Source of the DNA: Alloprevotella sp.
GTDB lineage: Bacteria > Bacteroidota > Bacteroidia > Bacteroidales > Bacteroidaceae
Assembly (NCBI GenBank): GCA_017476545.1
Contig: JAFUZP010000014.1
Coordinates: forward strand, 1-64,000
Reading direction: 5' to 3'
DNA length: 64,000 bases
Below, one piece after another: positions 140-63,144 of the stretch (its first letter is position 1; each line of letters starts with the position of its first letter). The notes beneath the pieces are model-generated. The model was given only the letters and a program-made list of their open reading frames with translations. It was not told the origin of the DNA and ran no database searches. A program made the position numbers and the translations under genes.

Positions 140-249
140 TAGCCCAGCGGTCAGGAAGAAGTAACCGCAGGGTAAGTTTTCCTTAACCCTGGGGTCAGTG
201 TATCATAACCGCAGGGTCAGTTTTTTCTAATTTTAGGGCTACTTAACGA
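140..249. repeat. 22-bp repeat array 1 (5 units)
   Basis: Five consecutive 22-nt units start at 140, 162, 184, 206 and 228. Each begins with a 14-nt near-palindrome such as TAACCGCAGGGTAA, followed by an 8-nt spacer such as GTTTTCCT. The last unit is degenerate. The spacers (GTTT type) run opposite to those of arrays 2, 3, 4 and 6, so the array is inverted relative to them. It lies just upstream of the polysaccharide promoter. Bases 1-139 hold only GC-rich sequence and a small hairpin near 80-95, probably the 3' flank of a gene outside the window. Confidence 0.85.
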
Positions 250-267
250 TGATTTCCCGTAAAAAAA

Positions 268-299
268 TTTGCCGCTAAGGTCAGAATGGGCTAAATTTG
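268..299 (+). promoter_or_regulatory. Promoter of the polysaccharide operon
   Basis: TTTG at 268-271, 20 bp, then TAAATTTG at 292-299: an exact match to the Bacteroidales -33/-7 consensus. The transcript would start near 306, leaving a leader of about 215 nt before the flippase gene. I saw no flanking inverted repeats of the kind that mark invertible capsule promoters. Confidence 0.75.
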
Positions 300-329
300 C
301 CCGATAAGTGGCAAGGAATTTACACTTCC

Positions 330-360
330 CGTCCCCCTCTAATAGGGGACGTTTACTATT
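330..360 (+). terminator. Hairpin in the polysaccharide leader, possible attenuator
   Basis: CGTCCCC (330-336) pairs perfectly with GGGGACG (345-351) around an 8-nt loop and is followed by a T-rich stretch. It lies within the first 50 nt of the predicted leader, so it could act as a transcription attenuator. The weak T-run keeps confidence low. Confidence 0.4.
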
Positions 361-522
361 GTCCCGCCTGCAACCTCTCAATTTTCAGTGTGTTATGTCG
401 GATGCGGGGAGCTGGAAGTATGTGCTTTGCCATACATGCATCTTAAGTGAAAGAATTGTTTCCGGCCACTCGGCTGCCTGTGGGAGTGCAGGACGGTATG
501 GTGGCCTGTGAGAGGGATGTTC

Positions 523-1851
523 ATGGAAAGTTCCGCACGGACGCGTAAAGTGAAGAATAATGTGATAGGCTCCCTTGTGATAAAGGGGTTGAGCATTGTC
601 GTGCAGCTGATACTTGTCCCGCTGACGCTGGGTTATGTGTCCGATGAGCTATATGGGATATGGCTGACGCTTTCTTCCATCGTCGTTTGGCTGAACTTCT
701 TTGACATCGGGTTTACCTTAGGGCTGAAGAACAGGCTGGCGGAGGCGATAGCCAAGGAGGATTACGAGAAGGGAAAGCGCCTGGTCTCGACGACTTATGT
801 CCTGATGGCGGCCATCTTTATCCCCCTGTTCTGTTTCGGCGCGCTGGCTGTTCCGCACATTGACTGGCCCTACTGGCTCAAGGTGGATGCCGGCTATCTC
901 CCCGAGATACAGAGCACGCTGTACATTTTGTTGGGGTGCTTCTGTCTTCAGATGATAACAAATGTGCTGGGTGCGGTCGTTGCGGCGTTCCAGCAGGTGG
1001 CGCTGTCCTCCTTGTTCCCTGTCATCGGCAATGTGGCCTCCGTGGCCATCATCTATGTCTTGACGAAGACGGCCCCTCCCTCCCTGATGTATCTGGCTTT
1101 GGCTATCTCCATTGTCCCGATAGTGGTGGTTGTGGTGGCGTCCGCCGTCTTGTATAGTGGTGCATATCGGCGGGTGGCTCCTGCGCTGGGGTACTTTGAT
1201 AAGCGGGAGATAGGAAGCCTGTTTTCCTTGGGCGGCAAGTTTTTCCTGCTCCAGGTGCAGGTGGTGGTCTTGTATCAGACGACGAACTTCCTGATATCCT
1301 TTGTGTCCTCTCCCGTGACGGTGACGGCGTATAACATCGCATACCGCTATATAGGCGTTGCGATGATGGTGTTCATGATTGTCCTCCAACCCTTGTGGCC
1401 CGCCGTCACGGACGCCTACACGAAGGGGGACTTTGCCTGGATGAAGCGGGTGTATAGGAAGATGAGCCTGCTGTACCTGCTGTCGTCCTTGGCTATCGTG
1501 CTGCTCCTTCTCGTCTCTCCGCTGGTCTATAAGGTCTGGATAGGCGGCAAGGCGGAGGTGCCCTTCATCATGACGGCCGTTGTGGCCATATACGTAATCG
1601 TACATACCTGGGATTCCCTGCAGGTGTACATCATAAATGGCACGGGGCACATAAAGCTGCAGGTTTACGTAACCCTCTTCGGCCTCATCGCCCACGTACC
1701 GATGTCCTTGCTGTTCGGTAAGTACTTGGGGTTAGGGGGGCTTGGCGTGGTACTGTCCATGATAGTCGTGAACATCGTATATGCTTCGTGTTTTACGCTA
1801 CAGATTAACAAGCTGCTGAATAATACGGCAAAAGGTATTTGGATAGCATGA
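523..1851 (+). CDS. Wzx-type polysaccharide flippase
   Basis: A 442-residue integral membrane protein of the MATE/Wzx (polysaccharide biosynthesis) fold. It has about 12 hydrophobic segments beginning near residue 15 and few charged loops. It would move an undecaprenyl-linked oligosaccharide unit across the inner membrane. I chose the ATG at 523 because GAGAGGG lies 6 nt upstream; in-frame GTG 508 and ATG 517 are alternatives. It is the first gene of a tightly packed polysaccharide operon, its stop overlapping the next start by 4 nt, and it follows a long leader with a promoter at 268-299. The repeat-unit substrate cannot be read from the sequence. Confidence 0.88.
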   Translation: MESSARTRKVKNNVIGSLVIKGLSIVVQLILVPLTLGYVSDELYGIWLTLSSIVVWLNFFDIGFTLGLKNRLAEAIAKEDYEKGKRLVSTTYVLMAAIFIPLFCFGALAVPHIDWPYWLKVDAGYLPEIQSTLYILLGCFCLQMITNVLGAVVAAFQQVALSSLFPVIGNVASVAIIYVLTKTAPPSLMYLALAISIVPIVVVVVASAVLYSGAYRRVAPALGYFDKREIGSLFSLGGKFFLLQVQVVVLYQTTNFLISFVSSPVTVTAYNIAYRYIGVAMMVFMIVLQPLWPAVTDAYTKGDFAWMKRVYRKMSLLYLLSSLAIVLLLLVSPLVYKVWIGGKAEVPFIMTAVVAIYVIVHTWDSLQVYIINGTGHIKLQVYVTLFGLIAHVPMSLLFGKYLGLGGLGVVLSMIVVNIVYASCFTLQINKLLNNTAKGIWIA

Positions 1852-2564
1852 GTTGGATTAGAAAAAGGCTGCGGGACAACACACTGGTAATAAAGCTTTA
1901 CGCACTGAAGCTTTTCTGGAACCGGTATTTCCCCGTGCGGAAGGAATTGGGAGCTTGCGGCAGCAATTCGCGCCTTGAGTATCCCGTATGCTTTGAGACC
2001 CGAGGCAATGTCTTCCTGGAAGAAAATGTAAGGATACGGGGCGGCTGCCACATCATCAACTCGGCGGCTGAAAAAGTCGTCATCAAGAAATACTCCGTGC
2101 TGGCCCCTAACTGCACCATCATCACGAACAGCCACCGCAGCACGGTGACAGTCCCGCATTTCCTGCTGGGTGCGAGCCACATTAACGACAAGTCGTGCGA
2201 CATTATCATCGAGGAAGATGTCTGGGTCGGTGCCAATGTGGTGCTCCTTCCCGGAGCGCATTTGGGCCGGGGCTGCATCATCGGTGCGGGCTCGGTCGTG
2301 TCAAAACCGATACCTCCTTACGCTTTGGCCGTCGGCTCTCCGGCAAAAGTGATACAAAAAAAGTTTGAGCTGTCGGATGTCCTGGAGCACGAGAAAGCGC
2401 TCTACTGTGAAGCGGACAGGCTCTCGGAGGAATTCCTGCGGGAGCTTTACGCGGAACATTTTGAGGGGCTGAAGACCTATGGTACGGCGGAGGGCATTGA
2501 TGACGCCGCAAGGGAAAGACTCGCCCGCCTGAAGACGGCGACAAGGTTTGTGGAACCCTGCTGA
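1848..2564 (+). CDS. Hexapeptide-repeat O-acyltransferase
   Basis: A 238-residue protein with left-handed beta-helix (hexapeptide) repeats from about residue 60 to 165. Its IIEEDVWVGANVVLLPG and GCIIGAGSVVSK stretches are typical of the LbetaH/WbbJ acetyltransferase family. It probably acetylates a sugar of the polysaccharide from acetyl-CoA in the cytoplasm. The likely catalytic His is in NSHRST. The ATG at 1848 overlaps the flippase stop (ATGA), so the two are probably translationally coupled. The last 60 residues are helical, charged and less conserved in type. Acceptor sugar and acyl donor are inferred from the family and the locus. Confidence 0.82.
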   Translation: MSWIRKRLRDNTLVIKLYALKLFWNRYFPVRKELGACGSNSRLEYPVCFETRGNVFLEENVRIRGGCHIINSAAEKVVIKKYSVLAPNCTIITNSHRSTVTVPHFLLGASHINDKSCDIIIEEDVWVGANVVLLPGAHLGRGCIIGAGSVVSKPIPPYALAVGSPAKVIQKKFELSDVLEHEKALYCEADRLSEEFLRELYAEHFEGLKTYGTAEGIDDAARERLARLKTATRFVEPC

Positions 2565-2601
2565 TTCTGCACAGGGTGAGTTCGGAACGGATAAAGGCTT
2601 A

Positions 2602-3828
2602 ATGACGCGTCAAGACTCCATACATAAGGACTGGCTGGCTTTTATAATAGGGCTGTTTGCCTATGTGCAGGTGCGCATCCTCGGCACGTTTGCGGTCGGT
2701 GAGCTGGTGCTGTTTGCCATTACGCCGTTTATTGCGTTCAAGAAGTTCTGGCATGATACGCGGGCCCGGCACTTTGTCTATATGGGCCTGGTATGGTTGG
2801 CGGGCGTAATGTTTGCGGATATTTGGAACCGGACGCCTCTGGTGGACCACTTGAAGGGCGTCTTTAACGTCGTTTTCCTCATAGCGTTAGTTCCCGCCGT
2901 CTATTGGCTCCTTCACGACAGGCCGCGCCGTCTGCTCTATTATTATGGGGGCGCCGCACTGTCGATGCTTTTCAACTTCTATGTCCAGCGGTCTTATGAT
3001 GTTGTGTATGAGTTCGAGGTCTGGCGGGTGTATGCATTTTATCCTTTAGCGATATTTGCAGCCGGTTTCTTGTACTACAAGGGACGCCACCTCCTGTCCT
3101 ATGCCGTGGTGATGGCCTTTGGTGTGTGGTCGCTCTATAATATGAGCCGGAACATTTTCCTGACCCAATCCATCGCCGTAGCGATACTGTTTTATATGGA
3201 TTTGGTGGCTAAACGGCACGGTATGGTACGGGCTAAGGTCAAAAAAAGGGTGAGCGGGGTCATCTTCTTCTTGCTCGTGGCGCTGTTCTTCGTGGATTAC
3301 ACTTATGAATCCCTGGCATCAAGCGGCGCATTAGGTACGCGGGCTGCCCAGAAATACTGGGTGCAGAAGCGTTCGGACCGTGGTCTGGCTTCGGGTCGCG
3401 GGGATGCTTTTGTCTCACTCTACCTGATAGGCAAGAATCCCATTGTAGGTTATGGCAGTTATGCGAAGGACAAAGACAAGGTGGCGCACAGATATATAGC
3501 GAAACATAGCGTCTGGAAACCGAAATACAAGGCGGACAACCTGTTGCCCGGGCACTCTTATATTTTAGGGGCGTGGGTCTATGCCGGGATATTGGGCTTC
3601 GCTTTCTTTGCATACATACTGGTGCTCCTGTGGAGGGCGTTCTATACGGGGGTATTGTTCTCTGACTTGAAATTGATGGGGCTGAACATATACCTTCTTA
3701 TGATGCTGTTGTGGAATATCCTGTTCTCACCTTTCGCGCACCGCATAAACTTTGTGTTCTTTATCATGGCCGTTATGATACTTTGGCGGCGGTATGACCG
3801 CCAGGAAGCGGCAATAAAGCTGTCATAA
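2602..3828 (+). CDS. O-antigen polymerase/ligase family protein (Wzy-like)
   Basis: A 408-residue polytopic membrane protein with about ten hydrophobic helices and a large periplasmic loop (roughly residues 230-310) holding RG..SGRGDAF and PGHSYILG. This layout is typical of the O-antigen ligase/Wzy superfamily. In a Wzx/Wzy locus it would polymerise repeat units in the periplasm, or ligate them to lipid A core or another carrier. I chose ATG 2602, preceded by ATAAAGG, over an upstream TTG at 2548 that would add 18 non-hydrophobic residues. The neighbouring Wzx supports Wzy, but a WaaL-type ligase role cannot be excluded. Confidence 0.75.
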   Translation: MTRQDSIHKDWLAFIIGLFAYVQVRILGTFAVGELVLFAITPFIAFKKFWHDTRARHFVYMGLVWLAGVMFADIWNRTPLVDHLKGVFNVVFLIALVPAVYWLLHDRPRRLLYYYGGAALSMLFNFYVQRSYDVVYEFEVWRVYAFYPLAIFAAGFLYYKGRHLLSYAVVMAFGVWSLYNMSRNIFLTQSIAVAILFYMDLVAKRHGMVRAKVKKRVSGVIFFLLVALFFVDYTYESLASSGALGTRAAQKYWVQKRSDRGLASGRGDAFVSLYLIGKNPIVGYGSYAKDKDKVAHRYIAKHSVWKPKYKADNLLPGHSYILGAWVYAGILGFAFFAYILVLLWRAFYTGVLFSDLKLMGLNIYLLMMLLWNILFSPFAHRINFVFFIMAVMILWRRYDRQEAAIKLS

Positions 3829-3832
3829 GGAA

Positions 3833-4669
3833 ATGATAGTGCTGTCCATCGTAATCCCTTCTTACAACCAGGGCGCGTTTCTGGAGGAAGCCTTGCTGTC
3901 CGCCGTTTCCCAGAAGACTTCGGAAGTGGAAGTCTTAGTGATGGACGGCGGTTCCACAGATGGCTCTTGTGAAGTTATAAGGAAGTACGAGAAAGAGCTG
4001 TCTTATTGGCAGAGTGCGCAGGACAAGGGGCAGAGCGACGCGATAAATCAGGGTTTTCGGAAAGCGCGCGGGGCGTATGTTACTTGGCTTAACTCAGACG
4101 ACGTCCTGCTTGCAGGTGCTGTGGCGTCTATCTTGGGCGCGGTTAAGCGTTACCCGGAATGCCACTGGTTCCTGGGGAATGTCCTTTGGATGAACAAGTC
4201 CGGGGAAATAATCCGTGCCGGGAAGGTTGAAAAGGAGTGCTGGTTCTGGAACAAACGTTATTTGTTCTCTAACGGAGGCCCCTCTGCGGTGATGCGGCGG
4301 CAAACGTTGTTGGATATAGGTGCTCTCCGCGAGGACTTCCACTATATGATGGATACGGAATTATGGTGTAGGTTCCTTTCACAGGGATATCCCTTCAGAA
4401 GGATTGGGCATTATCTCTGGGGGCTGCGGCTCCATGAGCAGGCTAAGATGTCGGGACACAATTTCGCTAATTCCTCCTTTGCAGATAAAAGCCATCCTTC
4501 GTGGCAGCAAAAAAGGCTTGAGGTAGAGAGGATAGCGGCTCTTTATCCTAAAGGGAAACTGGAAAGCAGGCTTTGGAGGTTTTCAAAAATCCTTTCATCA
4601 ACAGCTTTTTCACGTGTCTTTGATAAGCGGCTTATCGGGAAGAATTATCACATTTTAGGCAAACAATAA
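3833..4669 (+). CDS. Family 2 glycosyltransferase
   Basis: A 278-residue GT-A fold transferase. The N-terminal LSIVIPSYNQGAFLEEAL and MDGGSTDGS stretches form the nucleotide-sugar site, and LNSDDV near residue 85 supplies the DxD-like metal motif. EDFHYMMDTELWCRF near residue 165 fits the catalytic base and acceptor region. It adds one sugar to the lipid-linked repeat unit at the cytoplasmic face of the inner membrane. It starts 4 nt after the polymerase stop, and its TAA overlaps the next ATG by one base. Donor and acceptor sugars are unknown. Confidence 0.88.
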   Translation: MIVLSIVIPSYNQGAFLEEALLSAVSQKTSEVEVLVMDGGSTDGSCEVIRKYEKELSYWQSAQDKGQSDAINQGFRKARGAYVTWLNSDDVLLAGAVASILGAVKRYPECHWFLGNVLWMNKSGEIIRAGKVEKECWFWNKRYLFSNGGPSAVMRRQTLLDIGALREDFHYMMDTELWCRFLSQGYPFRRIGHYLWGLRLHEQAKMSGHNFANSSFADKSHPSWQQKRLEVERIAALYPKGKLESRLWRFSKILSSTAFSRVFDKRLIGKNYHILGKQ

Positions 4670-6980: not shown

Positions 6981-6981
6981 T

Positions 6982-7524: not shown

Positions 7525-7529
7525 CGCTG

Positions 7530-8444: not shown

Positions 8445-8494
8445 CTTTATAGTACGGCTGTCGCGATACGTCCGTAGCCGAATGACATCTTCTT

Positions 8495-10723: not shown

Positions 10724-10764
10724 CGCGAGCGCGCCCCCGGCAAAACACTGGGGGCGCGCTCGCG
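10724..10764 (+). terminator. Hairpin terminator after the WecA-like gene
   Basis: A perfect 15-bp stem (10724-10738 with 10750-10764, CGCGAGCGCGCCCCC) around an 11-nt loop, followed by TATTTCTTCC. It closes the first polysaccharide transcription unit. Confidence 0.75.
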
Positions 10765-10774: not shown

Positions 10775-10862
10775 TATCCCTAGGGGTAGGAACGCGTACC
10801 CCTAGGGATAGGAGAAACTAACCGTAGGCTTGCGAAGCACTAACCCCGCGGTTACGAAACCG
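10775..10862. repeat. 22-bp repeat array 2 (4 units)
   Basis: Units start at 10775, 10797, 10819 and 10841. The core of unit 1 (TATCCCTAGGGGTA) is the exact reverse complement of the core of unit 2 (TACCCCTAGGGATA), so the pair forms a perfect 14-bp inverted repeat with an 8-nt loop. It lies between two co-oriented genes, directly after a terminator. Confidence 0.88.
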
Positions 10863-15307: not shown

Positions 15308-17500
15308 ATGCAAATTCATCCCCTATTTTGGCTTGTGCCCGTGGCTTCTATCGTAGCCTTGAGCATGGCGTGGGTATTCTTCAAGAGCATGATTAGTGCC
15401 GATGAAGGTACGCCCCGCATGAAAGAAATTGCCGAGTACGTCCGCAAGGGCGCAATGGCTTACCTGAAGCAGCAGTACAAGGTGGTATTCATCGTATTCA
15501 TCGTACTTGCTGCTCTCTTTGCGTTTATGGCGTATGGCCTTGGCGTACAGAATCCCTGGGTGCCCTTTGCCTTCCTGACGGGCGGTTTCTTCAGTGGATT
15601 GGCCGGCTTCTTCGGCATGAAGACCGCCACTTATGCCAGCGGCCGCACCGCCAACGCAGCGCGCAAGAGCCTCGACAGCGGTCTGAAGATAGCCTTCCGT
15701 TCCGGTGCCGTGATGGGCTTGACGGTGGTAGGCCTCGGTCTGCTCGACATTGCCATCTGGTTCATTGTGCTGAGCCAGTTCTACACGGAGGGCAGCGCCG
15801 CTCTCATCACGATTACTACCACGATGCTGACCTTCGGTATGGGTGCATCTACGCAGGCCCTCTTTGCCCGTGTGGGTGGTGGTATCTATACGAAGGCAGC
15901 CGACGTGGGTGCCGACATCGTGGGTAAGGTGGAAGCCGACATCCCCGAGGACGACCCCCGCAACCCCGCCACCATCGCCGACAACGTGGGCGACAACGTG
16001 GGCGACGTGGCCGGTATGGGTGCCGACCTCTACGAGAGCTATTGCGGCTCCATCCTCAGTACGGCAGCCCTTGGTGCTGTGGCCTTTGCGGCTACGGACT
16101 TCCAGCTGAATGCCGTCATCGCTCCTATGGCCATTGCTGCCGTGGGCATCTTCCTGAGCCTCATCGGCATCTTCCTCGTCCGCACGAAGGAAGGAGCCAC
16201 GATGCGCGACCTCCTGAAGAGCCTCTCGCTCGGCACGAACGTAAGTGCCGTGCTCATTGCAGCCGCCACGTTCGGCATCCTCTACGGTCTTGGTCTGGAG
16301 AACTGGCTCGGCCTGAGCTTCTCCGTCATCAGCGGTCTGGCCGCAGGTGTCATCATCGGACAGGCTACCGAGTACTACACCAGCCACAGTTACAAGCCGA
16401 CGCAGGCTATCTCCGCCGCAGGTCAGACGGGCTCCGCCACCGTTATCATCAAGGGTATCGGTACGGGCATGATTTCCACCTGCATCCCCGTGCTCACCAT
16501 CGGTGTGGCCATCATGCTCAGCTATCTCTGCGCAAATGGTTTCGATATCAACATGGACCCCGCCAGCATTTCTAAGGGTCTCTATGGTATTGGCATCGCC
16601 GCAGTAGGTATGCTGTCCACGCTGGGCATCACGCTCGCCACGGACGCTTACGGCCCCATTGCCGACAACGCTGGCGGTAACGCCGAAATGAGCGAACTGG
16701 GCGAAGAAGTGCGCCACCGCACCGATGCCCTCGACGCACTTGGCAACACCACGGCCGCTACAGGTAAGGGCTTCGCCATCGGCAGTGCCGCTCTGACGGC
16801 CCTGGCACTTCTGGCAAGCTACATCGAGGAAGTGAAAATTGCCGTTCAGCGCATGGCCGACGAGGGCAATGCCGTCATGCAGGAGATGATTACGAAGATC
16901 AGCGACATCCCCTCCTTCATGGACTACTTCCAGGTGAACCTCATGAATCCCCGCGTGCTTGTCGGCGCCTTCATCGGTGCTATGGCCGCATTCCTGTTCT
17001 GCGGTCTCACGATGGAAGCCGTAGGACGCGCCGCGCAGAAGATGGTTGTCGAGGTACGCCGCCAGTTCAAGGAGATTGCAGGCATCCTCGAGGGCACGGG
17101 AACGCCCGACTACGGCCGCTGCGTAGAGATTTCCACGCGTGCCGCTCAGCACGAGATGATTGTGCCCTCCGTGCTGGCCATCATTATCCCCATCGCCGTA
17201 GGCCTCCTGCTCGGCGTTGCCGGCGTACTGGGTCTGCTTGTCGGCGGCCTCTGCGCAGGCTTCACGCTTGCAGTCTTCATGGCCAACGCCGGCGGTGCTT
17301 GGGACAACGCCAAGAAGAACGTCGAGGAAGGCAACTTCGGTGGTAAGGGCTCGTTTGCCCATAAGGCCACCATCGTGGGCGACACCGTGGGCGACCCCTT
17401 CAAGGACACCAGCGGCCCCTCGCTGAACATCCTCATCAAGCTCATGTCCATGGTCAGCATCGTGATGGCCGGCCTCACCGTAGCTTGGAGCGTGTTCTAA
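15308..17500 (+). CDS. hppA: Membrane-bound ion-pumping pyrophosphatase
   Basis: A 730-residue protein with about 16 hydrophobic helices and the invariant cytoplasmic motifs of H+/Na+-translocating pyrophosphatases: DVGADIVGKVEADIPEDDP near residue 198, then DNVGDNVGDVAGMGADL, and DNAGGNAEMSEL with GNTTAATGKG near 475-485. It couples hydrolysis of pyrophosphate to ion export across the inner membrane. The Ala in NTTAA, where K+-independent enzymes carry Lys, predicts a K+-dependent enzyme, a group that includes Na+ and dual Na+/H+ pumps in this phylum. Pumped ion is inferred. It is a single-gene unit with its own promoter and two terminators downstream. Confidence 0.96.
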   Translation: MQIHPLFWLVPVASIVALSMAWVFFKSMISADEGTPRMKEIAEYVRKGAMAYLKQQYKVVFIVFIVLAALFAFMAYGLGVQNPWVPFAFLTGGFFSGLAGFFGMKTATYASGRTANAARKSLDSGLKIAFRSGAVMGLTVVGLGLLDIAIWFIVLSQFYTEGSAALITITTTMLTFGMGASTQALFARVGGGIYTKAADVGADIVGKVEADIPEDDPRNPATIADNVGDNVGDVAGMGADLYESYCGSILSTAALGAVAFAATDFQLNAVIAPMAIAAVGIFLSLIGIFLVRTKEGATMRDLLKSLSLGTNVSAVLIAAATFGILYGLGLENWLGLSFSVISGLAAGVIIGQATEYYTSHSYKPTQAISAAGQTGSATVIIKGIGTGMISTCIPVLTIGVAIMLSYLCANGFDINMDPASISKGLYGIGIAAVGMLSTLGITLATDAYGPIADNAGGNAEMSELGEEVRHRTDALDALGNTTAATGKGFAIGSAALTALALLASYIEEVKIAVQRMADEGNAVMQEMITKISDIPSFMDYFQVNLMNPRVLVGAFIGAMAAFLFCGLTMEAVGRAAQKMVVEVRRQFKEIAGILEGTGTPDYGRCVEISTRAAQHEMIVPSVLAIIIPIAVGLLLGVAGVLGLLVGGLCAGFTLAVFMANAGGAWDNAKKNVEEGNFGGKGSFAHKATIVGDTVGDPFKDTSGPSLNILIKLMSMVSIVMAGLTVAWSVF

Positions 17501-17537
17501 GGATTCAAAGAAATCATACAAGCATTAAGCATAAGCG

Positions 17538-17660: not shown

Positions 17661-18965
<1,305 letters not shown>

Positions 18966-18992
18966 AGTCTGGGTCGTTATTTTTTTCGGCTG

Positions 18993-19000
18993 CAAAATTA
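18993..19000 (-). promoter_or_regulatory. -7 promoter element of miaB
   Basis: TAATTTTG on the minus strand (CAAAATTA as written), about 28 bp before the chosen GTG. No good TTTG box at the expected distance. Its position is what rules out the upstream TTG start. Confidence 0.45.
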
Positions 19001-19176: not shown

Positions 19177-19264
19177 TAACCATAGAGGTACGGGAGACTG
19201 AACGCAGGGTTACGGCACACTAACCCTAGGGTTAAGAAACGCTATCCCTGGGGGTAAGGAAAAT
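19177..19264. repeat. 22-bp repeat array 3 (4 units)
   Basis: Units start at 19177, 19199, 19221 and 19243. Unit 3 contains the perfect palindrome TAACCCTAGGGTTA. The array ends 16 bp from the stop of the acyltransferase gene and lies upstream of miaB. The rest of 18966-19280 shows no gene. Confidence 0.9.
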
Positions 19265-20455: not shown

Positions 20456-20614
20456 ACGATGCAAATATCGGGATAGTTTTTTACATGTGCAAGCTTTTTT
20501 GCGATTTTTTTTGACAAAGATGCAAAAAAGTTGTTTTTAGCTATGTCTTTGTATTGGGTAATCGGCGAAAAAACGGCAAATATTTGTTTTTCGCGGCGAG
20601 CGTAAAATCAAAAA

Positions 20615-26957: not shown

Positions 26958-27045
26958 CGGGAAATTTTCCAGTGCGCTTGGGAAAATTTTCCCGGTCGCG
27001 TGGAAAAAAATCCCGAGCGGAGTGGACAATCCGAAACGCGGCGTT
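26958..27045. repeat. 22-bp repeat array of a second type (3-4 units)
   Basis: Units begin at 26958, 26980, 27002 and 27024. The core is a different palindrome: GGGAAATTTTCC, then the perfect GGGAAAATTTTCCC, then GGAAAAAAATCCC, then a degenerate copy. Spacers resemble GGTCGCGT. Period (22 bp), unit count and intergenic position match the other arrays. With the inverted repeat at 26818-26855 it fills the gap between metG and the converging glycosyltransferase gene. Confidence 0.65.
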
Positions 27046-36946: not shown

Positions 36947-37034
36947 TACCCCTATGGGTAGGAAAAACTATCTATAGGGTTACGGCGAACTAACCCTACG
37001 GTTACGGTGCGCTATCCCTATAGGTAAGATCCGA
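36947..37034. repeat. 22-bp repeat array 4 (4 units)
   Basis: Units start at 36947, 36969, 36991 and 37013 with cores TACCCCTATGGGTA, TATCTATAGGGTTA, TAACCCTACGGTTA and TATCCCTATAGGTA. It lies between two converging genes, next to a hairpin terminator. Confidence 0.9.
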
Positions 37035-46168: not shown

Positions 46169-46256
46169 CACCCCCAGGGTTGGTCGTCCGTAACCGTAGG
46201 GTTAGTTTGCCATAACCGTAGGGTCAGTTTACCGTAACCGTAGGGATAGGTTCATC
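46169..46256. repeat. 22-bp repeat array 5 (4 units)
   Basis: Units start at 46169 (degenerate), 46191, 46213 and 46235. The last three share TAACCGTAGGG. Spacers (GTTTGCCA, GTTTACCG) show the array is inverted relative to arrays 2, 3, 4 and 6. It lies between the structured RNA and the end of the nuclease operon. Confidence 0.9.
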
Positions 46257-46338: not shown

Positions 46339-47868
46339 CTACAGCCCCCAGAGGCTGGGGGTATAGGAAGCCTCGACGGTACGCTCCGTATCGTCGGGCA
46401 GGTTGTGGAAGAAGTCCAGTCCTGTAACCTCCTCAAGCCGGTCGATGCTCATAGCGTGCCCGGCGAGGACGCTGGCGGGGGCCTGGTCGCTGTTCGTATA
46501 GCCGTACTCCTTGTGTTCCATGAGGAAGCCTACGGCGGAGTATGCGCCGTTCTTCACCCGGAGCAGGGCCATGAAATAGTACTTGGGTATGGCTACGCGC
46601 TTGCCGCTGCGGTTGATGGTGCCGAGACGCAGGTCGCTGGCCGTTGTCCCCCCCTTGACAACGTAGAGCGTGTCGGCGAAGGAGGCGTCGCGCCCCAGGT
46701 TCCGCACCTTGTTCTCCAGTGTGATCCAGTAGCCTTGGTTGAAGGAGGCAAGCTGGGGGGATATGTTTGTCATGTAGAACGTCTGGGCGTTGGCGGCGTC
46801 GCTATAGAGGCGGTCGGCCGATCCGCAGATGTGCCCGCGGTCGTAGCCGGAGCCGAAGGTGGAGGAGCCGATGCGGTAGGCGGCGGGCAGGTCGGGATCG
46901 TCGGTGAATGGCTCATCGCTGCGCGAGGTGTTGCGCTGGCGCGTGGTGGCGTCGAAGCGCAGGGCGACCCAGCGACTGTGGTATGCGGAGGGGTCGAACT
47001 CGAGACAGTAGTTCATGACGCTGTCACCGCCTTCCACCGTCCAATGGGAAATGAGCTGCGATGCATCCTTGAGGGCTGGCACTTCGAGCCGGCGTGGCAC
47101 GTAGGCCTTGCGCCCGAGGGCGGCGAGGGGGTCTTCGGCGGCGTTACCGGCCTGTGCGGAGAAGCTCCGGACCTCCCACGTACTGCTCGTCGTACCGCAG
47201 TTGTAACGGAAGGCGAAGCGTACGGTCTTGCCAAGGAAGGCCGAGGGAACCTGCACGTCGGCATCGTGGAAGGTGGTGTAGTTGCTGCTTTCCTCATGCT
47301 TCTGCGTGAGGACCGTCCAACCCTGTGCGGCGTTGTCCGCACTGAAGTCTTCGGCGTTGATGATGAGGAGCTGCTGGTTGGCATCGCCCCGGTTGTAGCG
47401 CAGGAGGTAGTTGTAGAGAAGGTGTACGGCCTTGCCCGGGAGTTTTATCGCGGGGCTGACGAGGTAATAAGTGCCGGCCACGGTGGTTCTGGAGGAAGCG
47501 TTGTAGCCGGATGCGTAGGCGGTCTGGTAATCCGTCTTCCAGCCGCCGCTTCCACTCGTGGTGTAGTTGGTCCATCCGGCAAGGCTGGTGGCGAAACTGG
47601 CACTGTAGGGCAAGTCGCTCTCGTCGGCGAGGTCGATAACGGTAAGGCTGTCCACGTTGTCCGCGCGGTAAACGACGGTGCGCCGGCTGTGTAGCCAGAT
47701 GTTCAAATTAAGCACGCCGCCTTCTCTCGAAGTGGTGATACTGTCAATCTTGGCGGTCTGAAACTGATCGACCCGGTCGTCAGGCATGTGGATGCGCAGC
47801 ACCTGCTGGGCGCGCACGGCTGATGCGGCAGCACAAAGCAGGAGGGTAAGTATGAGTATCCGTTTCAT
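46339..47868 (-). CDS. Exported DNA/RNA non-specific endonuclease with N-terminal choice-of-anchor J domain
   Basis: A 509-residue exported protein. Signal peptide (MKRILILTLLLCAAASAVRA), a beta linker, a choice-of-anchor J-type domain (about residues 85-245; SASFATSLAGWTNYTTSGSG) and a C-terminal NUC1-type nuclease. The nuclease has the ββα-metal motif GYDRGHICGSADR near residue 345 and the metal-coordinating Asn in FYMTNISPQ near 375, as in Serratia nuclease. It should cut DNA and RNA outside the cell or in the periplasm, with Mg2+. The J domain is close to those of the neighbouring 732-residue lipoprotein, and the nuclease half is paralogous to the 302-residue neighbour, so it looks like a fusion of the two. 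Last gene of the operon. Confidence 0.88.
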   Translation of the reverse strand: MKRILILTLLLCAAASAVRAQQVLRIHMPDDRVDQFQTAKIDSITTSREGGVLNLNIWLHSRRTVVYRADNVDSLTVIDLADESDLPYSASFATSLAGWTNYTTSGSGGWKTDYQTAYASGYNASSRTTVAGTYYLVSPAIKLPGKAVHLLYNYLLRYNRGDANQQLLIINAEDFSADNAAQGWTVLTQKHEESSNYTTFHDADVQVPSAFLGKTVRFAFRYNCGTTSSTWEVRSFSAQAGNAAEDPLAALGRKAYVPRRLEVPALKDASQLISHWTVEGGDSVMNYCLEFDPSAYHSRWVALRFDATTRQRNTSRSDEPFTDDPDLPAAYRIGSSTFGSGYDRGHICGSADRLYSDAANAQTFYMTNISPQLASFNQGYWITLENKVRNLGRDASFADTLYVVKGGTTASDLRLGTINRSGKRVAIPKYYFMALLRVKNGAYSAVGFLMEHKEYGYTNSDQAPASVLAGHAMSIDRLEEVTGLDFFHNLPDDTERTVEASYTPSLWGL

Positions 47869-54989: not shown

Positions 54990-55077
54990 TACCTATAGGG
55001 GTAAGGAAAACTGACTCTAGGGGTACGAAGAACTGACCGTAGGGTTACGGAGCGCTAACCCTAGGGTTAGGAACGGC
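54990..55077. repeat. 22-bp repeat array 6 (4 units)
   Basis: Units start at 54990, 55012, 55034 and 55056. The last carries the perfect palindrome TAACCCTAGGGTTA. The array lies between divergent genes, outside both predicted promoters, so it cannot serve as a transcription terminator of either. Confidence 0.9.
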
Positions 55078-55176: not shown

Positions 55177-55221
55177 CACGGCAATACCCTCTGAAAGACA
55201 AACGAAAAACAGACCAACCGG

Positions 55222-56811: not shown

Positions 56812-56863
56812 GTTCGCGCGGCAAAAAACATGGCAGGAGCGGGGATAATTCCGAAAAAAGCCC

Positions 56864-56871
56864 TATATTTG
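56864..56871 (+). promoter_or_regulatory. -7 promoter element of the OmpA-family gene
   Basis: TATATTTG, exact consensus, 51 bp before the ATG. No TTTG at the usual distance. Confidence 0.55.
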
Positions 56872-56922
56872 CGCAACTGAGACCGTGAAACGAACAAACA
56901 ACCAAACTTTTATAATACCATT

Positions 56923-58071: not shown

Positions 58072-58093
58072 GCGGACGCATCACTACAAAAAA

Positions 58094-58138
58094 AGCGGAG
58101 CGGGGCGCAGCGCAGACTGCACTCCGCTCCAACTTTTT
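58094..58138 (+). terminator. Terminator of the OmpA-family gene
   Basis: A 7-bp outer stem (GGAGCGG 58097-58103 with 58124-58130) with an inner GCAG/CTGC pair, followed by AACTTTTT. It lies 25 bp after the stop. Confidence 0.6.
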
Positions 58139-58183
58139 AGAAATATCCGTCGCACAAAAACTGCGTGGAACGCGAAAAATCCG

Positions 58184-58191
58184 TACCTTTG
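58184..58191 (+). promoter_or_regulatory. -7 promoter element of the EEP-family gene
   Basis: TACCTTTG, exact consensus, about 24 bp before the ATG. The -33 region is weak. Confidence 0.5.
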
Positions 58192-58214
58192 CAGCCATAG
58201 AAGACAAATACACC

Positions 58215-59330
58215 ATGAGAAAAGTAATCCTCACGCTGGCCGCTATCTTCCTGGCCACCGCTCTATCCGCCCAGAACGGCGGGAAGCGCTATGCCCTCTA
58301 TGGCATCTGTTTCTACAACCTCGAGAATCTGTTTGACACCATCCACGATGCAGGAAAGAATGACTATGAGTACCTGCCCGACGGAGCCAATAAGTGGGGT
58401 GCCATGAAGTACGCGAACAAACTGAAAAACATGGCCAAAGTTCTTTCTGAGTTATGCCGCGACAAACTCCCGGGCGGCCCTGCTGTCGTGGGAGTCAGCG
58501 AGGTGGAGAACCGCCGCGTGCTTGAAGATCTACTGAGGCAGCCCGCCTTGGCCGGACAGGGCTGGCAGATTGTGCACGAGGACGGGCCGGACCGCCGTGG
58601 CGTGGAGTGCGCATTCTTTTACAACCCTCGTCTTTTCAAATATGAGGGGCACCAGCTCGTGCCCTACTACTACAAAGACCCTGAACAGCCCGACGTGGAT
58701 CTCGGTTTCTACGAGGATACGAACGGGAAAGTCGTGGCCTACAAAGAACTGCGCGGCGACACGACACACATCACCCGAGGCTTCCTCGTTATGAGTGGTA
58801 CGCTTGCGGGCGAAAAGACGCACTGCATTGTCTGCCACTGGCCCAGTCGCTTCGCAGGGAGTCCCGTCCGGGAACGCGCCGGTGAGCAGGTACGTGCCTT
58901 GAAGGACGCTTTGCTGCGTCAGGACCCGGGCTGCCACGTTATCATCATGGGCGACATGAACGACGACCCCAAGGATAAGAGTATGAGCGAGGCACTTGGT
59001 TGCAAGCACAAGGTGAAAGATGTCAAGGGAGACGGGGATATGTATAACCCATGGTGGGATATGCTCTACAAAGTCGGCCAGGGAACACTCCTCTATAACG
59101 GGAAGTGGAATCTTTTCGACCAGATAGTATTCAATGGAAACCTGTTGCACGATGCGGACGCTCAGACGCTGCAATTCTACCGGAACGAAATTTTCCTCCG
59201 GGACTACCTCTTGCAGCAGGAAGGCCGCTATAAGGGCAACCCGCTCCGCACGCAGGCCGGTGGGACGTGGCTCAACGGCTACAGCGACCACCTGCCCACA
59301 ATGATCTACCTTAAGAAAGAAGTGAAATAA
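58215..59330 (+). CDS. Exported endonuclease/exonuclease/phosphatase-family protein
   Basis: A 371-residue exported protein. Signal peptide (MRKVILTLAAIFLATALSAQ), then the EEP fold: YGICFYNLENLFD near residue 30, VVGVSEVENRRVLEDL near 95 (metal Glu), DGPDRRGVECAFFY near 125, HCIVCHWPSR near 205, MGDMNDDP near 248 (Asp-x-Asn) and the C-terminal YSDHLP with the catalytic Asp-His. Substrate may be nucleic acid or a phosphorylated small molecule. With the two nucleases at 46-49 kb it makes three exported nuclease-type enzymes within 13 kb. It sits 9 nt before hisS, so the pair is probably cotranscribed. Confidence 0.87.
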   Translation: MRKVILTLAAIFLATALSAQNGGKRYALYGICFYNLENLFDTIHDAGKNDYEYLPDGANKWGAMKYANKLKNMAKVLSELCRDKLPGGPAVVGVSEVENRRVLEDLLRQPALAGQGWQIVHEDGPDRRGVECAFFYNPRLFKYEGHQLVPYYYKDPEQPDVDLGFYEDTNGKVVAYKELRGDTTHITRGFLVMSGTLAGEKTHCIVCHWPSRFAGSPVRERAGEQVRALKDALLRQDPGCHVIIMGDMNDDPKDKSMSEALGCKHKVKDVKGDGDMYNPWWDMLYKVGQGTLLYNGKWNLFDQIVFNGNLLHDADAQTLQFYRNEIFLRDYLLQQEGRYKGNPLRTQAGGTWLNGYSDHLPTMIYLKKEVK

Positions 59331-59339
59331 GCTCATAAG

Positions 59340-60713
59340 ATGAAACCAAGTATCCCTAAAGGAACGCGCGACTTCGGCCCGGTCGAGACGGCGCGGCGCA
59401 ACTATATTTTCAACACAATCCGCGACGTGTATGCTCTACACGGCTTCCGGCAGATAGAAACCCCCGCCTTAGAGAACCTCTCCACGCTGTTGGGGAAATA
59501 CGGGGAGGAGGGTGACAAGCTACTCTTCAAGGTGTTGAACTCGGGAGACTTCCTTTCAAAAGTCACGGACGCGGAGCTTGCGGAGCGTGACATCCCCCGT
59601 CTCGCCGCCCGCATCTGTGAGAAGGGACTGCGCTACGACCTCACAGTTCCTTTTGCCCGCTATGTCGTGCAGCACCGCGAGGAGTTGCAAATGCCCTTCA
59701 AGCGGTACCAAATACAGCCCGTCTGGCGCGCTGACCGCCCGCAAAAGGGGCGTTACCGCGAATTTTACCAGTGCGACGCGGATGTTGTCGGCTCGGATTC
59801 GCTGCTGAACGAGGTGGAATTGGTACAAATCATGGACGACGTATTCCGCCGTTTCGGTATCCGCGTAAGCATTAAGCTCAACAACCGGAAAATTCTCACG
59901 GGCATCGCGGAAGTCATGGGTGCGGCAGACAAAATAATCGCTATCACGGTAGCCATCGATAAACTGGACAAAATAGGCCTTGACGCTGTGAACGAAGAGC
60001 TTAGGACGGCAGGTATCTGCGACGATGCTATTGCCAAATTGCAGCCTGTCATCGGGTTAGCCGGCACAAACGAGGAGAAACTTCGGACCATGCGGGCTGT
60101 ACTGAAAGACTCCGAGGTGGGGCTCAAGGGCTTGGATGAGGTGGAATTTGTCCTCAACGCATTGGAAGCGCTGCCACGTCCCGCCGATGGAAGCAGCCGC
60201 AATGCTGTGGAACTGGATCTTACCTTAGCACGCGGGCTGAATTACTATACGGGTTGCATCTTTGAGGTGAAGGCGTTGGACGTAGAGATAGGCAGCATAA
60301 CGGGCGGTGGACGCTACGACAACCTCACCGGCATATTTGGGCTGCCCGGTCTCAGCGGTGTGGGTATCTCATTTGGAGCCGACCGTATTTACGACGTACT
60401 CACCCAGCTTGACCTCTTCCCCGCCGAGGCGGCACAGAGTGTCCGTGTGTTATTCCTTAACTTCGGTGCGCAGGAAGTGGCCCGCTGTCTGGTTCTCGCG
60501 CAAATGGTCCGTGCGGCAGGCGTTCCCGCCGAGGTGTACCCCGACACTGTCAAGATGAAAAAGCAGATGGCCTATGCCAACGCGCTCGGCGTACCGTTCG
60601 TTGCCATCGTCGGCGAGGATGAGCTGCGGCGCGATATCGTGGCGCTCAAGGATATGCGTAGCGGCGAGCAGCGCGAAGTGGCGGCTGGCGGATTGCTCGC
60701 TGCCATAAGTTAA
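59340..60713 (+). CDS. hisS: Histidyl-tRNA synthetase
   Basis: A 457-residue class II synthetase. [10 protein letters not shown] at the start, motif 1 region, motif 2 [20 protein letters not shown] near residue 125, the histidine-A motif [14 protein letters not shown] near 298, motif 3 [13 protein letters not shown] near 320 and a C-terminal anticodon-binding domain ([14 protein letters not shown] near 405). It charges tRNA-His. Length and motifs are normal. It follows the exported EEP gene by 9 nt and is closed by a terminator that overlaps the converging helicase gene end. Confidence 0.96.
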
Positions 60714-60736
60714 TCGTTTATTGTATGGCGGATGAT

Positions 60737-60766
60737 AAAGGGCGGCCCCTATGGGTCGTCCTTTTG
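60737..60766 (+). terminator. Terminator of hisS
   Basis: AAAGGGCGGCCC (60737-60748) pairs with GGGTCGTCCTTT (60753-60764), 12 pairs including two G-U, around the 4-nt loop CTAT, then TTTTGTTG. G-U pairs occur only on the plus strand, so it serves hisS. It overlaps the last codons of the converging helicase gene. Confidence 0.7.
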
Positions 60767-62887
60767 TTGCGGCGGTAGGCCGGCGCGGTGTTGCTGGCAG
60801 AACGTTTGCACGATGCGGAGCAGTTGCGCGCCATAGCGTTCAACTTTCGCTTTCCCCAGCCCCGGAATGCGTTGCAGGGCGGCGGGTGTTTCCGGGAGGA
60901 GGTTGGCTACGCCCAGCAGGGCTTTTTGCTGCAATATGAAGTGGGCCGGGAGCCCTTCTTCCCGCATCTGTTCCCGCCGCCAGTCCGTCAGAGCTTTGAA
61001 GAGGGCGGGGTAGCGGATGTCGGAAGGCACTTCTAATTTCGTCGCCGTGCGGGTTTTCTTTGTTTTGTCCGTGTCAGGGGTGGCCTCGGCCCGGGCCAGC
61101 ACGGCAAAACGGCGGCGTTGGTAGCGGTCCAGTACGACCCCTTCCGCAGCGACATAGCGCAGGAGGGCTACGCGGTGCCCGAGACTCTCGTTTAAGGCGG
61201 CTAATGCCTCTGTCGCGCGCCGTGCTACTTGTTTGTTGTCGGTCGGTAAAGACGTTTCTTCTGTCAGGTGGCGCAATCCCGACAGTTCCTTGGCAAAATA
61301 ATCCGCCCCTTTGCGCAGACGTTCCTGCAAGGTGTCGTCCGCCGCATGGTCTGCGGAGCCGCCCACTAGGCGGCGGTACTGCACCCGGAACCGCTCACTT
61401 ACGGTTACTACCCTTTCCTCAAACTCCGCCAGCTGTGTGCGCCAAGTTGTGAGTACCTGCGGATAGAGGCGGTAAAAGTGCTCCTCCATGATGCGGAGCA
61501 GGGTGCCTGCCTGGGCCGCCAGTGGGGCGAAGCCGAAGAGTTCGTCAAGCAGTCCGAGGTAGAACTGCTGGCGGAAAGCGCGCAGCATTGCCCCGTCCGG
61601 CGTGCGCTGTGCGAGACGGCGGGAAAAGTCGCCCACTGAGGCATCATTGATGATGGCGGACTGCGGTATAGGTGCGCTAAGGATAAGCCCCTCCAGCGTG
61701 CGGCAACGGCTCAGTGCCACATAGGTCTGTCCGTGCGAGAAGGCGGCATGGACATCAATGAGGGCGCGGTCGAACGTGAGTCCCTGGCTCTTGTGAACAG
61801 TAATGGCCCAGGCCAGTTTAACAGGGAATTGCCGGAAAAGCCCTTCCACGTGCTCCTCGATTTCCCCTGTCTGGTCGTTCAAGGCGTAGCGCGTGCTGGT
61901 CCATTCCACCTGCGGCACGTCAATTTCCGTATCTTCCCCTGTGAGGCGCACGCGGAAGCCTGTCTCGCTGATGGCCGACACCTCGCCGATGGAACCGTTG
62001 ACGTAGCGGTGCTCCGTGTCGTTCTTTACGAACATGACTTGTGCGCCCCGCTTCAGGACAAGGCGTTCCTCCGTCGGGAAGGACGAAGCGGCGAACTGTC
62101 CCTGCACATCCGCCTCGTAAATGTGTTCCGGGCCGGGCAGGCGGGCCAGTTCCCGGCGGTTCGTTTCCTGTGCCTGCCGGTTGTGCGTCACGAGTCGGAT
62201 GCAACCGTCACCCTGCCGGGGCGTATAGCCCGGCACATAGCGGCAGTTCAGTTTGTGCAACACGGCCTCGTTGATTTGGTTCTCGCGGACGCTGTTAAGC
62301 AAGTGGAGGAAATCCGCGTCTTGCTGCCGATAGACGCGCTGCAGCTCTATGGTCACGTAGTCCGTTTGGCGCAGGGCGAGGCTGCTGAAGAAAAAGGGAG
62401 TTTCGTAGTACTGCCGCAGCAGTTGCCACTCCTCCCCCTGTGCCACGGGCGGAAGCTGCTGCAAGTCGCCGATCATCACGAGTTGCACGCCGCCGAAGGG
62501 GCGGGTATGGTCGCGGTAACGCCGCAGCATGGAGTCAATGCGGTCCAGTAAGTCGGCGCGCACCATGGAAATCTCGTCAATGACGAGTGTGTCAATGCTC
62601 CTGACTAAGCGCACTTTCTGCCGTGTCAGGCTGAAATCCTTCGCCGCATACCGTGCGCCGGGGACGTAGGGGGCGAAGGGAAACTGGAAGAAGGAGTGGA
62701 TAGTCTGTCCTCCTGCGTTGATAGCGGCGATACCCGTGGGCGCAAGGATTACGACACGCTTCGGTGCCTGGGTGGCGACGGCGCGCAGGAAGGTTGTCTT
62801 CCCCGTCCCGGCGCGTCCCGTCAGGAACAGGTGGCGGTCGGTATGCTCCACTATTTCCCGCGCGATGCGGAGTTCTTCGTTATCCAT
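60749..62887 (-). CDS. PIF1-like helicase with C-terminal HRDC domain
   Basis: A 712-residue SF1B helicase. Walker A LTGRAGTGKTTFLRAVA near residue 20, APTGIAAINAGGQTIHSFF, Walker B LVIDEISMVRADLL near 100, GDLQQLPPV near 135, and motif VI-type AITVHKSQGLTFDRALIDVHAAFS, then YVALSRC near 400. After a helical middle region an HRDC domain covers about 630-705 (PALFKALTDWRREQMREEGLPAHF). It probably unwinds DNA with 5'-3' polarity in genome maintenance, as PIF1/RecD2 proteins do. I chose ATG 62887, which follows a perfect promoter at 62918-62949. Single gene. Confidence 0.9.
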   Translation of the reverse strand: MDNEELRIAREIVEHTDRHLFLTGRAGTGKTTFLRAVATQAPKRVVILAPTGIAAINAGGQTIHSFFQFPFAPYVPGARYAAKDFSLTRQKVRLVRSIDTLVIDEISMVRADLLDRIDSMLRRYRDHTRPFGGVQLVMIGDLQQLPPVAQGEEWQLLRQYYETPFFFSSLALRQTDYVTIELQRVYRQQDADFLHLLNSVRENQINEAVLHKLNCRYVPGYTPRQGDGCIRLVTHNRQAQETNRRELARLPGPEHIYEADVQGQFAASSFPTEERLVLKRGAQVMFVKNDTEHRYVNGSIGEVSAISETGFRVRLTGEDTEIDVPQVEWTSTRYALNDQTGEIEEHVEGLFRQFPVKLAWAITVHKSQGLTFDRALIDVHAAFSHGQTYVALSRCRTLEGLILSAPIPQSAIINDASVGDFSRRLAQRTPDGAMLRAFRQQFYLGLLDELFGFAPLAAQAGTLLRIMEEHFYRLYPQVLTTWRTQLAEFEERVVTVSERFRVQYRRLVGGSADHAADDTLQERLRKGADYFAKELSGLRHLTEETSLPTDNKQVARRATEALAALNESLGHRVALLRYVAAEGVVLDRYQRRRFAVLARAEATPDTDKTKKTRTATKLEVPSDIRYPALFKALTDWRREQMREEGLPAHFILQQKALLGVANLLPETPAALQRIPGLGKAKVERYGAQLLRIVQTFCQQHRAGLPPQQKDDP

Positions 62888-62917
62888 GCGTCTTGGTTTA
62901 CTGGTTTGGGCTTGTTG

Positions 62918-62949
62918 CAAAGGTAAAAGGGGCGGCGGAGAAAAGCAAA
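62918..62949 (-). promoter_or_regulatory. Promoter of the PIF1-like helicase gene
   Basis: On the minus strand, TTTG (62946-62949), 20 bp, TACCTTTG (62918-62925): a perfect consensus match, 30 bp before the chosen ATG. It excludes the upstream extension of the ORF to 62995. Confidence 0.85.
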
Positions 62950-63056
62950 CCGCCGGCACAAAGAATTGTCCGAAGCGGCCTGATGCATACCGCATCGGGC
63001 CGCTTTGCCTGCGTCCGGCGGGGGGCGGAAGGTGCTGGCCGCTGCGCCAATTCTCT

Positions 63057-63144
63057 TACCCTTAGGGTTGCGGCGAGCTAACCCTAGGGGTAGTCACTCG
63101 TAACCCTGCGGTTAGTTTGTCGTAACCCTATGGGTAATTCCGCG
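63057..63144. repeat. 22-bp repeat array 7 (4 units)
   Basis: Units start at 63057, 63079, 63101 and 63123. Cores are TACCCTTAGGGTTG, TAACCCTAGGGGTA, TAACCCTGCGGTTA and TAACCCTATGGGTA. Spacer types are mixed, so orientation changes within the array. It lies between nadA and the helicase gene, both on the minus strand. Confidence 0.9.

Follow-up and report, generated by a model that had tools for sequence, protein, structure and literature searches.

Phased palindrome arrays at even distances along an Alloprevotella chromosome suggest an organising protein with a fast-changing DNA target

Described systems closest to the arrays

It is a long-standing question whether the sequence itself fixes the boundaries of supercoil domains in bacteria. 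Among known chromosomal sites, those of the parS and Noc type are palindromes of 14–16 bp, bound by a dimeric protein and present several times per chromosome. The arrays described here differ in that they hold 3–5 phased sites at even distances; moreover, the recognition helix of ParB is nearly constant across species. The Lrp-type protein BarR binds several semi-palindromic 15-bp sites set at regular distances, and in AFM some of its complexes wrap the DNA (PMC10201364). The regular series of semi-palindromes resembles our arrays, but those of BarR belong to a single control region, at least 30–32 bp apart centre to centre (our own arithmetic from PMC10201364), whereas ours occur chromosome-wide.

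Two repeat families also come close. In the accessible part of their description, REP/BIME elements are dispersed intergenic palindromes, often in small clusters, with more than 100 copies and a suggested role in chromosome organisation (PMC2817692), and in all of this our arrays are like them. The differences are an exact 22-bp period, even chromosomal spacing, spacers that keep one orientation throughout the array rather than alternating (31 of 46 arrays), no half-site covariation in the genome under study (G000) and no intact RAYT found. The RAYT-type domain (PF01797) gave one partial match in G000, which is 80% complete (24.2 bits against a cut-off of 23, in a 332-aa frame), and no match in 7 of the 12 sister genomes searched. 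Membership in BIME/REP, which the initial annotation had offered, finds no backing in the half-sites of G000, and the domain search gave no more than this partial match in that genome.

BrickBuilt, a MITE of Porphyromonas gingivalis, is built, as far as the available part of the source describes it, of 23-nt units without spacers between a leader and a tail with inverted ends, in 19 copies (PMC4596501). Tandem units of similar length, an always intergenic position and a Bacteroidales host are shared. Our arrays differ in that a palindrome is joined to a less conserved spacer, no ends were found, the copy number extrapolates to ~190, and sister species carry other motifs. Across 45 arrays in G000, the best mean identity of an inverted 12-mer within 30 bases of the ends was 0.32, at most two arrays shared a perfect word of at least 5 bases at any one offset pair within 12 bases, as a target-site duplication would, and a strongly conserved flank was not found. 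The suggested kinship with BrickBuilt was thus dropped, since these arrays yielded no inverted ends. At the level of titles and abstract openings, we found no description of 21/22-bp arrays at even distances in this group.

Arrays in the window and across the genome

The window, that is, the whole 64-kb stretch of DNA analysed, contains seven arrays of one palindrome family (family 1), all without assigned strand and all where the initial annotation had placed them. The units are exactly 22 bp long and number four per array, except for five in the first; read directly, each unit joins a near-palindrome of 14 bp to a spacer of 8 bp. The array at 140–249 has weak first and last units and a profile score of 54.6 over its first four; those at 10775–10862, 19177–19264, 36947–37034, 46169–46256, 54990–55077 and 63057–63144 score 69.0, 68.2, 72.0, 74.5, 75.6 and 75.9. 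An eighth array at 26958–27016 (no strand assigned) had been counted as a relative; it is real, but its motif is not that of family 1. Its three units, with a period of ~22 bp, are of the GGGAAAATTTTCCC type (score 52.5) and represent a second family, inside a 17.8-kb gap separating family-1 arrays. The array at 19177 lies upstream of a putative miaB-type gene (17661–18995, minus strand), so called from its UPF0004, radical SAM and TRAM domains (Pfam); in some sister species, a different 21-bp repeat lies upstream of the copy of this gene.

Family 1 is dispersed well past the window. The word TAACCCTAGGGTTA occurs at 424 sites within 2 mismatches genome-wide, versus 4 for its reversed control. 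A 14-bp profile, trained on family-1 arrays and summed over four units, scored at least 42 at 45 places in a sample of 449,384 bases, with no scores between 8 and 42 and a top score of −6.2 in shuffled or reversed sequence; a two-unit array ending contig C1 (110492) was left out of the 45. Extrapolation gives ~190 arrays per genome. Intergenic gaps hold 42 of the 45, when an overlap of 40 bp with a called gene is tolerated (needed once, for 29 bp), and the remaining three are at contig starts, without a called gene on both sides. The palindrome is far better conserved than the spacer, and no array matched a known RNA family.

The half-sites of the palindrome bear on whether it acts as duplex or hairpin. 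Over 200 units in G000, the Watson-Crick cells fell below the shuffled mean at five of seven half-site pairs, were level at one (165 vs 164.1) and slightly above at one (109 vs 101.7, P 0.095); at the central pair, both halves were off in 1 of 200 units versus ~25 expected from the frequencies. This is a dimer-type constraint on sequence, and the period lies near two helical turns, as had been noted. Together with the absence of inverted ends and target duplications, the missing covariation in G000 favours sites for a dimer on duplex DNA over hairpins or MITEs. No pair covaries above 1 sd in the sister genome G026, and two of six do in G061 (by 2.4 and 2.6 sd); RNA or cruciform hairpins were rejected on these tests in the three genomes.

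Unrelated motifs, evenly spaced, in three species

Comparison with random intergenic placement had been set beforehand as the refuting check on regular spacing, and the outcome did not refute it. In G000, 39 gaps average 9.97 kb with a CV of 0.45, versus null means of 0.78–0.87, and 0 of 5000 random intergenic placements reached this CV, whichever of four minimum gap lengths was applied. Beyond the window the spacing is looser (3.2–19.8 kb) and still significantly regular. The result was repeated in two sisters with unrelated motifs: G061 has 29 arrays over 240 contiguous kb (CV 0.28, 0/4000), and G026 has 28 strong arrays (CV 0.44, at most 3/4000), with two weak arrays (scores 21.9 and 29.3) omitted from the count. 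Regular spacing, the point of likeness to sites of a chromosome-domain organiser, is common to the arrays of three species.

The distance rule is soft. In the pooled sample (n = 94), four gaps are <5 kb, none is <3 kb and 27 are 5–7 kb; the G000 sample has gaps of 3.2 kb, between two similar arrays that perhaps arose by duplication, and 3.5 kb. Outside that sample, sites at C7:18473–18508 would pair with the array at C7:20461 at a distance of 2.0 kb. A further 22-bp repeat at C10:92831 lies 3.3 kb from a family-1 array. Gaps >15 kb in G026 are not rarer than chance (6 vs ~5).

Sister species share the design and not the motif. TAACCCTAGGGTTA occurs 0–12 times in the 36 sister genomes searched; TGTCAGCTGACA occurs 167 times in G061 versus 0–9 in the other 57 genomes, and AATTGCATWATGCAATT 242 times in G026, 40 in G002 and 0–3 in the other 56. 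In a census that covered the intergenic tandem repeats of another 32 genomes from the genus (18–100 kb per genome, with tandem repetition as the sole criterion, palindromes not required and weak arrays missed), periods of 21 and 22 bp dominate (30 and 13 hits), followed by 16 bp (8). Rows of N were dropped in G022 and in one stretch of G080; five of ten G022 stretches were N only, so that G022 was not judged. Repeats of 21/22 bp of their own were found in 18 of the 32 sampled sisters and not seen in the other 14, including G081 (99% complete, 80 kb sampled). A Xylanibacter ruminicola contig also has a 22-bp repeat.

Between species, array positions show no clear conservation. From G000 to G026, array-flanked gene ends have an array in 5 of 8 cases versus 3 of 24 for array-free ends; from G000 to G061, the counts are 4 of 16 versus 10 of 36. 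At the one junction where G026 and G002 were compared in search of an empty site, the lengths were 509 and 423 bp.

Readings of the arrays and possible replacement of their motifs

Even distances could also arise as a by-product of insertion if the arrays were the ends of a mobile element or what is left of one, which we regard as unlikely. Target immunity keeps copies of Mu, Tn7 and IS21 apart, and the ends of Mu and Tn7 carry repeated sites of ~22 bp. The scarcity of short gaps would fit such an origin, as would G068, where a stretch of 200 bp or more around the 21-bp repeat recurs in very similar copies. Yet inverted ends, target duplications and a strongly conserved flank were all not found in the 45 G000 arrays, conservation is concentrated in the palindrome and not the spacer, and second families sit in the gaps of the first. 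IstB matches over the cut-off are solely 451–486-aa frames in six of eight genomes (G000, G026, G007, G080, G066 and G032), which from their length and family kinship we read as probable DnaA; the exceptions are an extra borderline match in G061 and a clear fragment (82.9 bits) in G021. Mu-transpos_C (PF09299) matched none of 31 genomes, the control genomes being equally silent. Still less probable is spread by a RAYT transposase as a REP/BIME-type family maintained as hairpins, which we hold to be very improbable: the dispersed, clustered palindromes and the partial covariation in G061 would suit it, but not the half-sites of G000 and G026 or the scant RAYT-type matches.

Transcription operators or insulators between operons, blocking read-through or regulating neighbours, would account for the position of arrays in tandem gaps, where 22 of 24 start 16–149 bp from the upstream stop. 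A strong 17-pair terminator-like stem (10724–10764) also precedes the array at 10775, which starts 11 positions past the stem end, although such stems are not in excess in that 10-kb region (9 vs 8.5 in shuffles). Against this reading, which we judge improbable, array gaps are tandem, convergent and divergent in 24, 9 and 9 cases versus 68, 21 and 19 for gaps of at least 150 bp, a similar mix that upholds the initial view of arrays as independent of gene orientation. Further, 61 of 103 gaps of at least 165 bp are array-free, and insulation does not predict even spacing. Flanking genes (10 window proteins by Pfam and, on our own reading, 17 genes next to long or close arrays) are ordinary and revealed no common theme; nor, on reading the proteins, were candidate regulators seen beside long arrays. 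Self marks for a species-specific defence, DNA uptake or exchange system, like Chi or uptake sequences, would explain species-specific motifs of high copy number and regular density. To our knowledge, however, such marks are single short words and never phased palindrome arrays, and we give this idea equally little credence.

The reading we prefer, held with about as much belief as doubt, is that each array is an anchoring or loading site of a putative dimeric nucleoid protein that organises the chromosome. Arrays of one cluster design with wholly different sequences in related species suggest such a protein with a fast-changing DNA target, and their spacing comes near the ~10 kb (range 2–66) reported for supercoil domains in E. 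coli and Salmonella (PMC3820752), which we count in favour of this reading. We also count for it that arrays in tandem gaps sit closer to the upstream stop (median 81 bp) than to the following start (median 190 bp). An array would then be 3–5 adjacent predicted sites, each to be bound by a dimer of a single sequence-specific protein; two-helical-turn phasing would put the dimers on one face of the duplex, allowing cooperative binding or DNA wrapping. Selection would keep the ~190 extrapolated nodes ~8–10 kb apart, and these may load or anchor a chromosome-organising complex as loop anchors, supercoil barriers or loading sites with spreading of a few kb each way. The protein would shift its DNA specificity between species and the sites would follow, with period and spacing retained. 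The arrays may thereby mark topological domains, as was first proposed. That such a protein exists, binds cooperatively and shapes the chromosome is our inference.

A search for the array-binding protein did not find it among Lrp/AsnC and ParB proteins, the recognition helices of which are constant across species of differing motif. The Lrp/AsnC sequence SRAA[IV]HQ is kept in all 22 proteins of the common paralogue, including those of G000, G026 and G061 (the remaining 8 of 30 are a second paralogue), and the ParB/Noc helix G-K-x-R-[AT]-[AT]-[IV]-A-N is present in all 12 proteins, including G000 and G061. None was found in G026, and ParB is single copy in the other 12 of 13 genomes.

More tentatively, and with doubt outweighing belief, the arrays might form a chromosome ruler that is genus-wide, perhaps family-wide: a fast-evolving dimeric protein would nucleate on phased arrays ~8–10 kb apart and cover or loop the intervening DNA. 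The geometry would stay while the DNA code is replaced from species to species, the old code and the new one serving side by side during the change. Such coexistence is proposed from the second families in gaps and from a mixed array in G026. Motif replacement with the geometry kept would provide a natural record, of a kind rarely available in bacteria, of DNA-binding specificity changing across a whole genome, and a single genome offers ~190 predicted, regularly spaced candidate sites in a group with cultured relatives.

Family 2 (GGGAAAATTTTCCC) has 31 sites genome-wide versus 1 in the control, and all three of its arrays found sit in stretches of >16 kb free of family 1. On contig C1 of G026, two arrays of a further family lie within 17-kb gaps of the main one. 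Both placements count for the anchoring or loading reading. Against it, adding second families barely moved the CV (0.44 to 0.42 in G000; 0.44 to 0.44 in G026). The mixed array of G026 is at C1:172028.

Spacing of the main array family

All seven palindromic arrays that the initial annotation described in the window (140-249, 10775-10862, 19177-19264, 36947-37034, 46169-46256, 54990-55077, and 63057-63144) were confirmed at these positions. They represent family 1, the main array family of this genome (46 contigs totaling 1.98 Mb, 80% completeness), in which TAACCCTAGGGTTA occurs at 424 sites with ≤2 mismatches, versus 4 for the reversed pattern. An initial chain search of the window plus added stretches (449,384 bases, 23% of the genome) yielded 46 arrays, 33 of them with exactly four units (≤4 mismatches). 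A profile built from these arrays, with scores summed over four units, found 45 arrays scoring ≥42 in the same bases and none between 8 and 42; its maximum in shuffled and reversed sequence was -6.2. Based on gene calls from a simple custom codon-usage finder, 42 of the 45 are in intergenic gaps, and three are at contig starts, where one side has no called gene. Extrapolation from 47 arrays in 489 kb gives ~190 per genome; a further list of arrays draws on 150 scored candidates out of 633. These analyses cover ~25% of one genome at 80% completeness, and smaller shares of its sisters.

The 39 gaps of the first sample have a mean of 9.97 kb (median 8.8, range 3.2–19.8 kb, CV 0.45). When compared with random intergenic placement, as the initial annotation had proposed, the arrays are more even: for four minimum region lengths, the mean random CV was 0.78–0.87, and 0 of 5000 draws were as even at any length. 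There were no gaps <3 kb (about 6 expected) and none >20 kb (about 4 expected). With a further 40 kb, picked for its sites of a minor family (family 2), the 41 gaps have a CV of 0.44. The shortage of short gaps is not a search artefact, as suppression covers only neighbors within 300 bases. It is also not absolute: on contig C7, two units (18473 and 18495) are 2.0 kb from an array at 20461, and exact matches at 265290 and 267523 on contig C3 of sister genome G061 are a possible further close pair. On C9, neighboring arrays at 16924 and 20133 (L038/L039) share spacers and unit order, perhaps through a ~3 kb duplication. A 22-bp repeat of GAAAAACGGACTGCCCGTGTAG type near C10:92831 (L047), 3.3 kb from a family-1 array, does not clearly belong to family 1 or 2.

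Arrays in related genomes

The own-genome motif (≤2 mismatches) has 0–12 sites in each of 36 congeneric genomes and 0–28 in each of 24 genomes from this order, the highest being G060, whose control gives 9. Many sisters have their own repeats; in two of them, arrays with a period of 21 bp were examined in detail. G026 carries AATTGCATWATGCAATT in 30 arrays over 317.5 kb (28 strong; five units in 20 of 30), and G061 carries TGTCAGCTGACA plus an additional conserved arm in 29 arrays over 240 contiguous kb (three units in 18). The G026 motif has 242 sites in G026, 40 in G002, and 0–3 in the other 56 genomes; the G061 motif has 167 sites in G061 versus 0–9 in each of the other 57. Judged by such site counts, these motifs are species-specific. 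Nearly all arrays are again intergenic (27/28 in G026, 29/29 in G061). Spacing in G061 has a CV of 0.28 (gaps 5.5–13.0 kb), with 0 of 4000 random draws as even; in G026, the CV is 0.44, with at most 3 of 4000 as even, and gaps >15 kb are not depleted relative to chance. Array positions showed no clear conservation when species were compared.

A census of intergenic tandem repeats in 32 genus genomes (18–100 kb each) found 30 of period 21 and 13 of period 22, with at most 8 for any other period of 15–40. At least one 21/22-bp repeat was present in 18 of the 32, including a single weak, AT-rich one in G004, and none in the samples of the other 14, including 80 kb of G081. At loci of the miaB-type gene, which adjoins a family-1 array in the window, 11 of 30 have a 21- or 22-bp tandem repeat, a count that includes our own locus and may include coding repeats. 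Relatives of the window nuclease (46339-47868; best identity 64%) gave 31 loci, mostly Prevotella and other Bacteroidales, where intergenic repeats of 21 and 22 bp have seven matches each, followed by five at 16 bp. This suggests that the array design may reach beyond the genus. Prevotella-type contigs (L017, L021, L022, L023) have 22-bp repeats with other palindromes again, e.g., TTCCCANNGTGGGAA and CTTTCCTCCGAGGAAAG.

Other repeats were also seen. In 20 kb sampled from G011, intergenic repeats are 16-bp, not 21-bp; L060/L131 of this genome contain a direct repeat of 66 bp that includes TAACCTTAAGGTTA and GAGGTTAT words, adjoined by a 27-bp tandem repeat. In G068, L184-L192 are highly similar copies of a ≥200-bp element containing a 21-bp repeat, and several contigs start or stop close by; the element may be a separate MITE or a mobile relative of recent origin.

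Minor array families

The minor family of our genome, GGGAAAATTTTCCC (period ~22 bp; 31 sites versus 1 in the control), forms three clear arrays in 489 kb. One, at C1:26958, is the related 27.0-kb array of the initial annotation and falls inside a 17.8-kb family-1 gap; another (C8:45169) is inside a 16.6-kb gap, and the third (C9:114944) follows the last array at a distance of 13.7 kb, where family 1 is missing over at least 18.7 kb. On contig C1 of G026, two additional families occur, at 172028 and 305234, each within a ~17-kb gap of the main family there. The C1:172028 array (L167) is mixed, with three second-family TTTCAAGCCTTGGAA units and then one first-family ATTGCATAATGCAAT unit in 21-bp register; the same second family recurs at C4:108839. 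Counting second-family arrays leaves the CV almost unaltered. These small numbers fit, but do not prove, that second families do one job with the main families. Outside both own-genome families, a 23-bp tandem repeat, GGTGCGATGTTGCGCAGGATGGC, occurs near C8:28675 (L049).

Unit anatomy and possible role

Each family-1 unit is a 14-bp palindrome plus an 8-bp spacer. Palindrome positions 3, 4, 9, and 10 (from 0) are 94–98% conserved, and mid-spacer conservation is almost nil. Across 200 units, the half-sites vary independently: of the seven pairs, five have Watson-Crick cells lower than the shuffled mean, one about equals it, and one slightly exceeds it (109 vs 101.7, P 0.095). At the central pair, a single unit of the 200 deviates in both halves, versus about 25 expected from base frequencies. 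Because of this independence and the rarity of doubly altered central pairs, the units behave like sites for a dimeric protein on duplex DNA, unlike a stem. In G026, no pair is >1 sd above shuffles; the case in G061 is less clear, since two of six pairs exceed shuffles (by 2.4 and 2.6 sd).

Even spacing across species with different sequences points to either selection on spacing or insertion with exclusion. A conserved flank block, an inverted end, and a target duplication were each sought in the 45 own-genome arrays, and none was found; flank information falls to 0.1–0.3 bits by about four bases out, with a few isolated positions above the 99% null of 0.20 bits (maximum 0.43). Among transposition-related domains, IstB scored above cut-off in six of eight genomes only in frames of 451-486 aa, interpreted as DnaA, plus one borderline match in G061 and one clear fragment in G021. 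RAYT gave a weak partial match in our genome, and a Mu-type search had no matches, its control being equally silent. Neither of two candidate proteins seems to track the motif in its specificity: Lrp/AsnC, found in 39 of 41 genomes, has an identical recognition helix in all 22 compared members, among which are three species whose motifs are unrelated, and ParB is single-copy in 12 of 13 genomes with a nearly invariant helix.

We favor an architectural role for the arrays on the basis of their period, number, ~10-kb spacing, indifference to gene orientation, and placement soon after the upstream stop. The indifference bears out the earlier claim of no tie to flanking-gene orientation. The spacing is near the 10 kb supercoil domain size given in PMC3820752. 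Our searches of open-licence literature brought up no description of evenly spaced arrays of this kind, which does not prove that none exists.

In the window, Rfam gives a single match reaching the gathering score, to FopS (RF04319; 20390-20457, minus strand; 73.2 bits), a Bacteroidetes sRNA family. At 15308-17521, open frames on opposite strands (730 and 732 aa) overlap, and one of them is probably a shadow.
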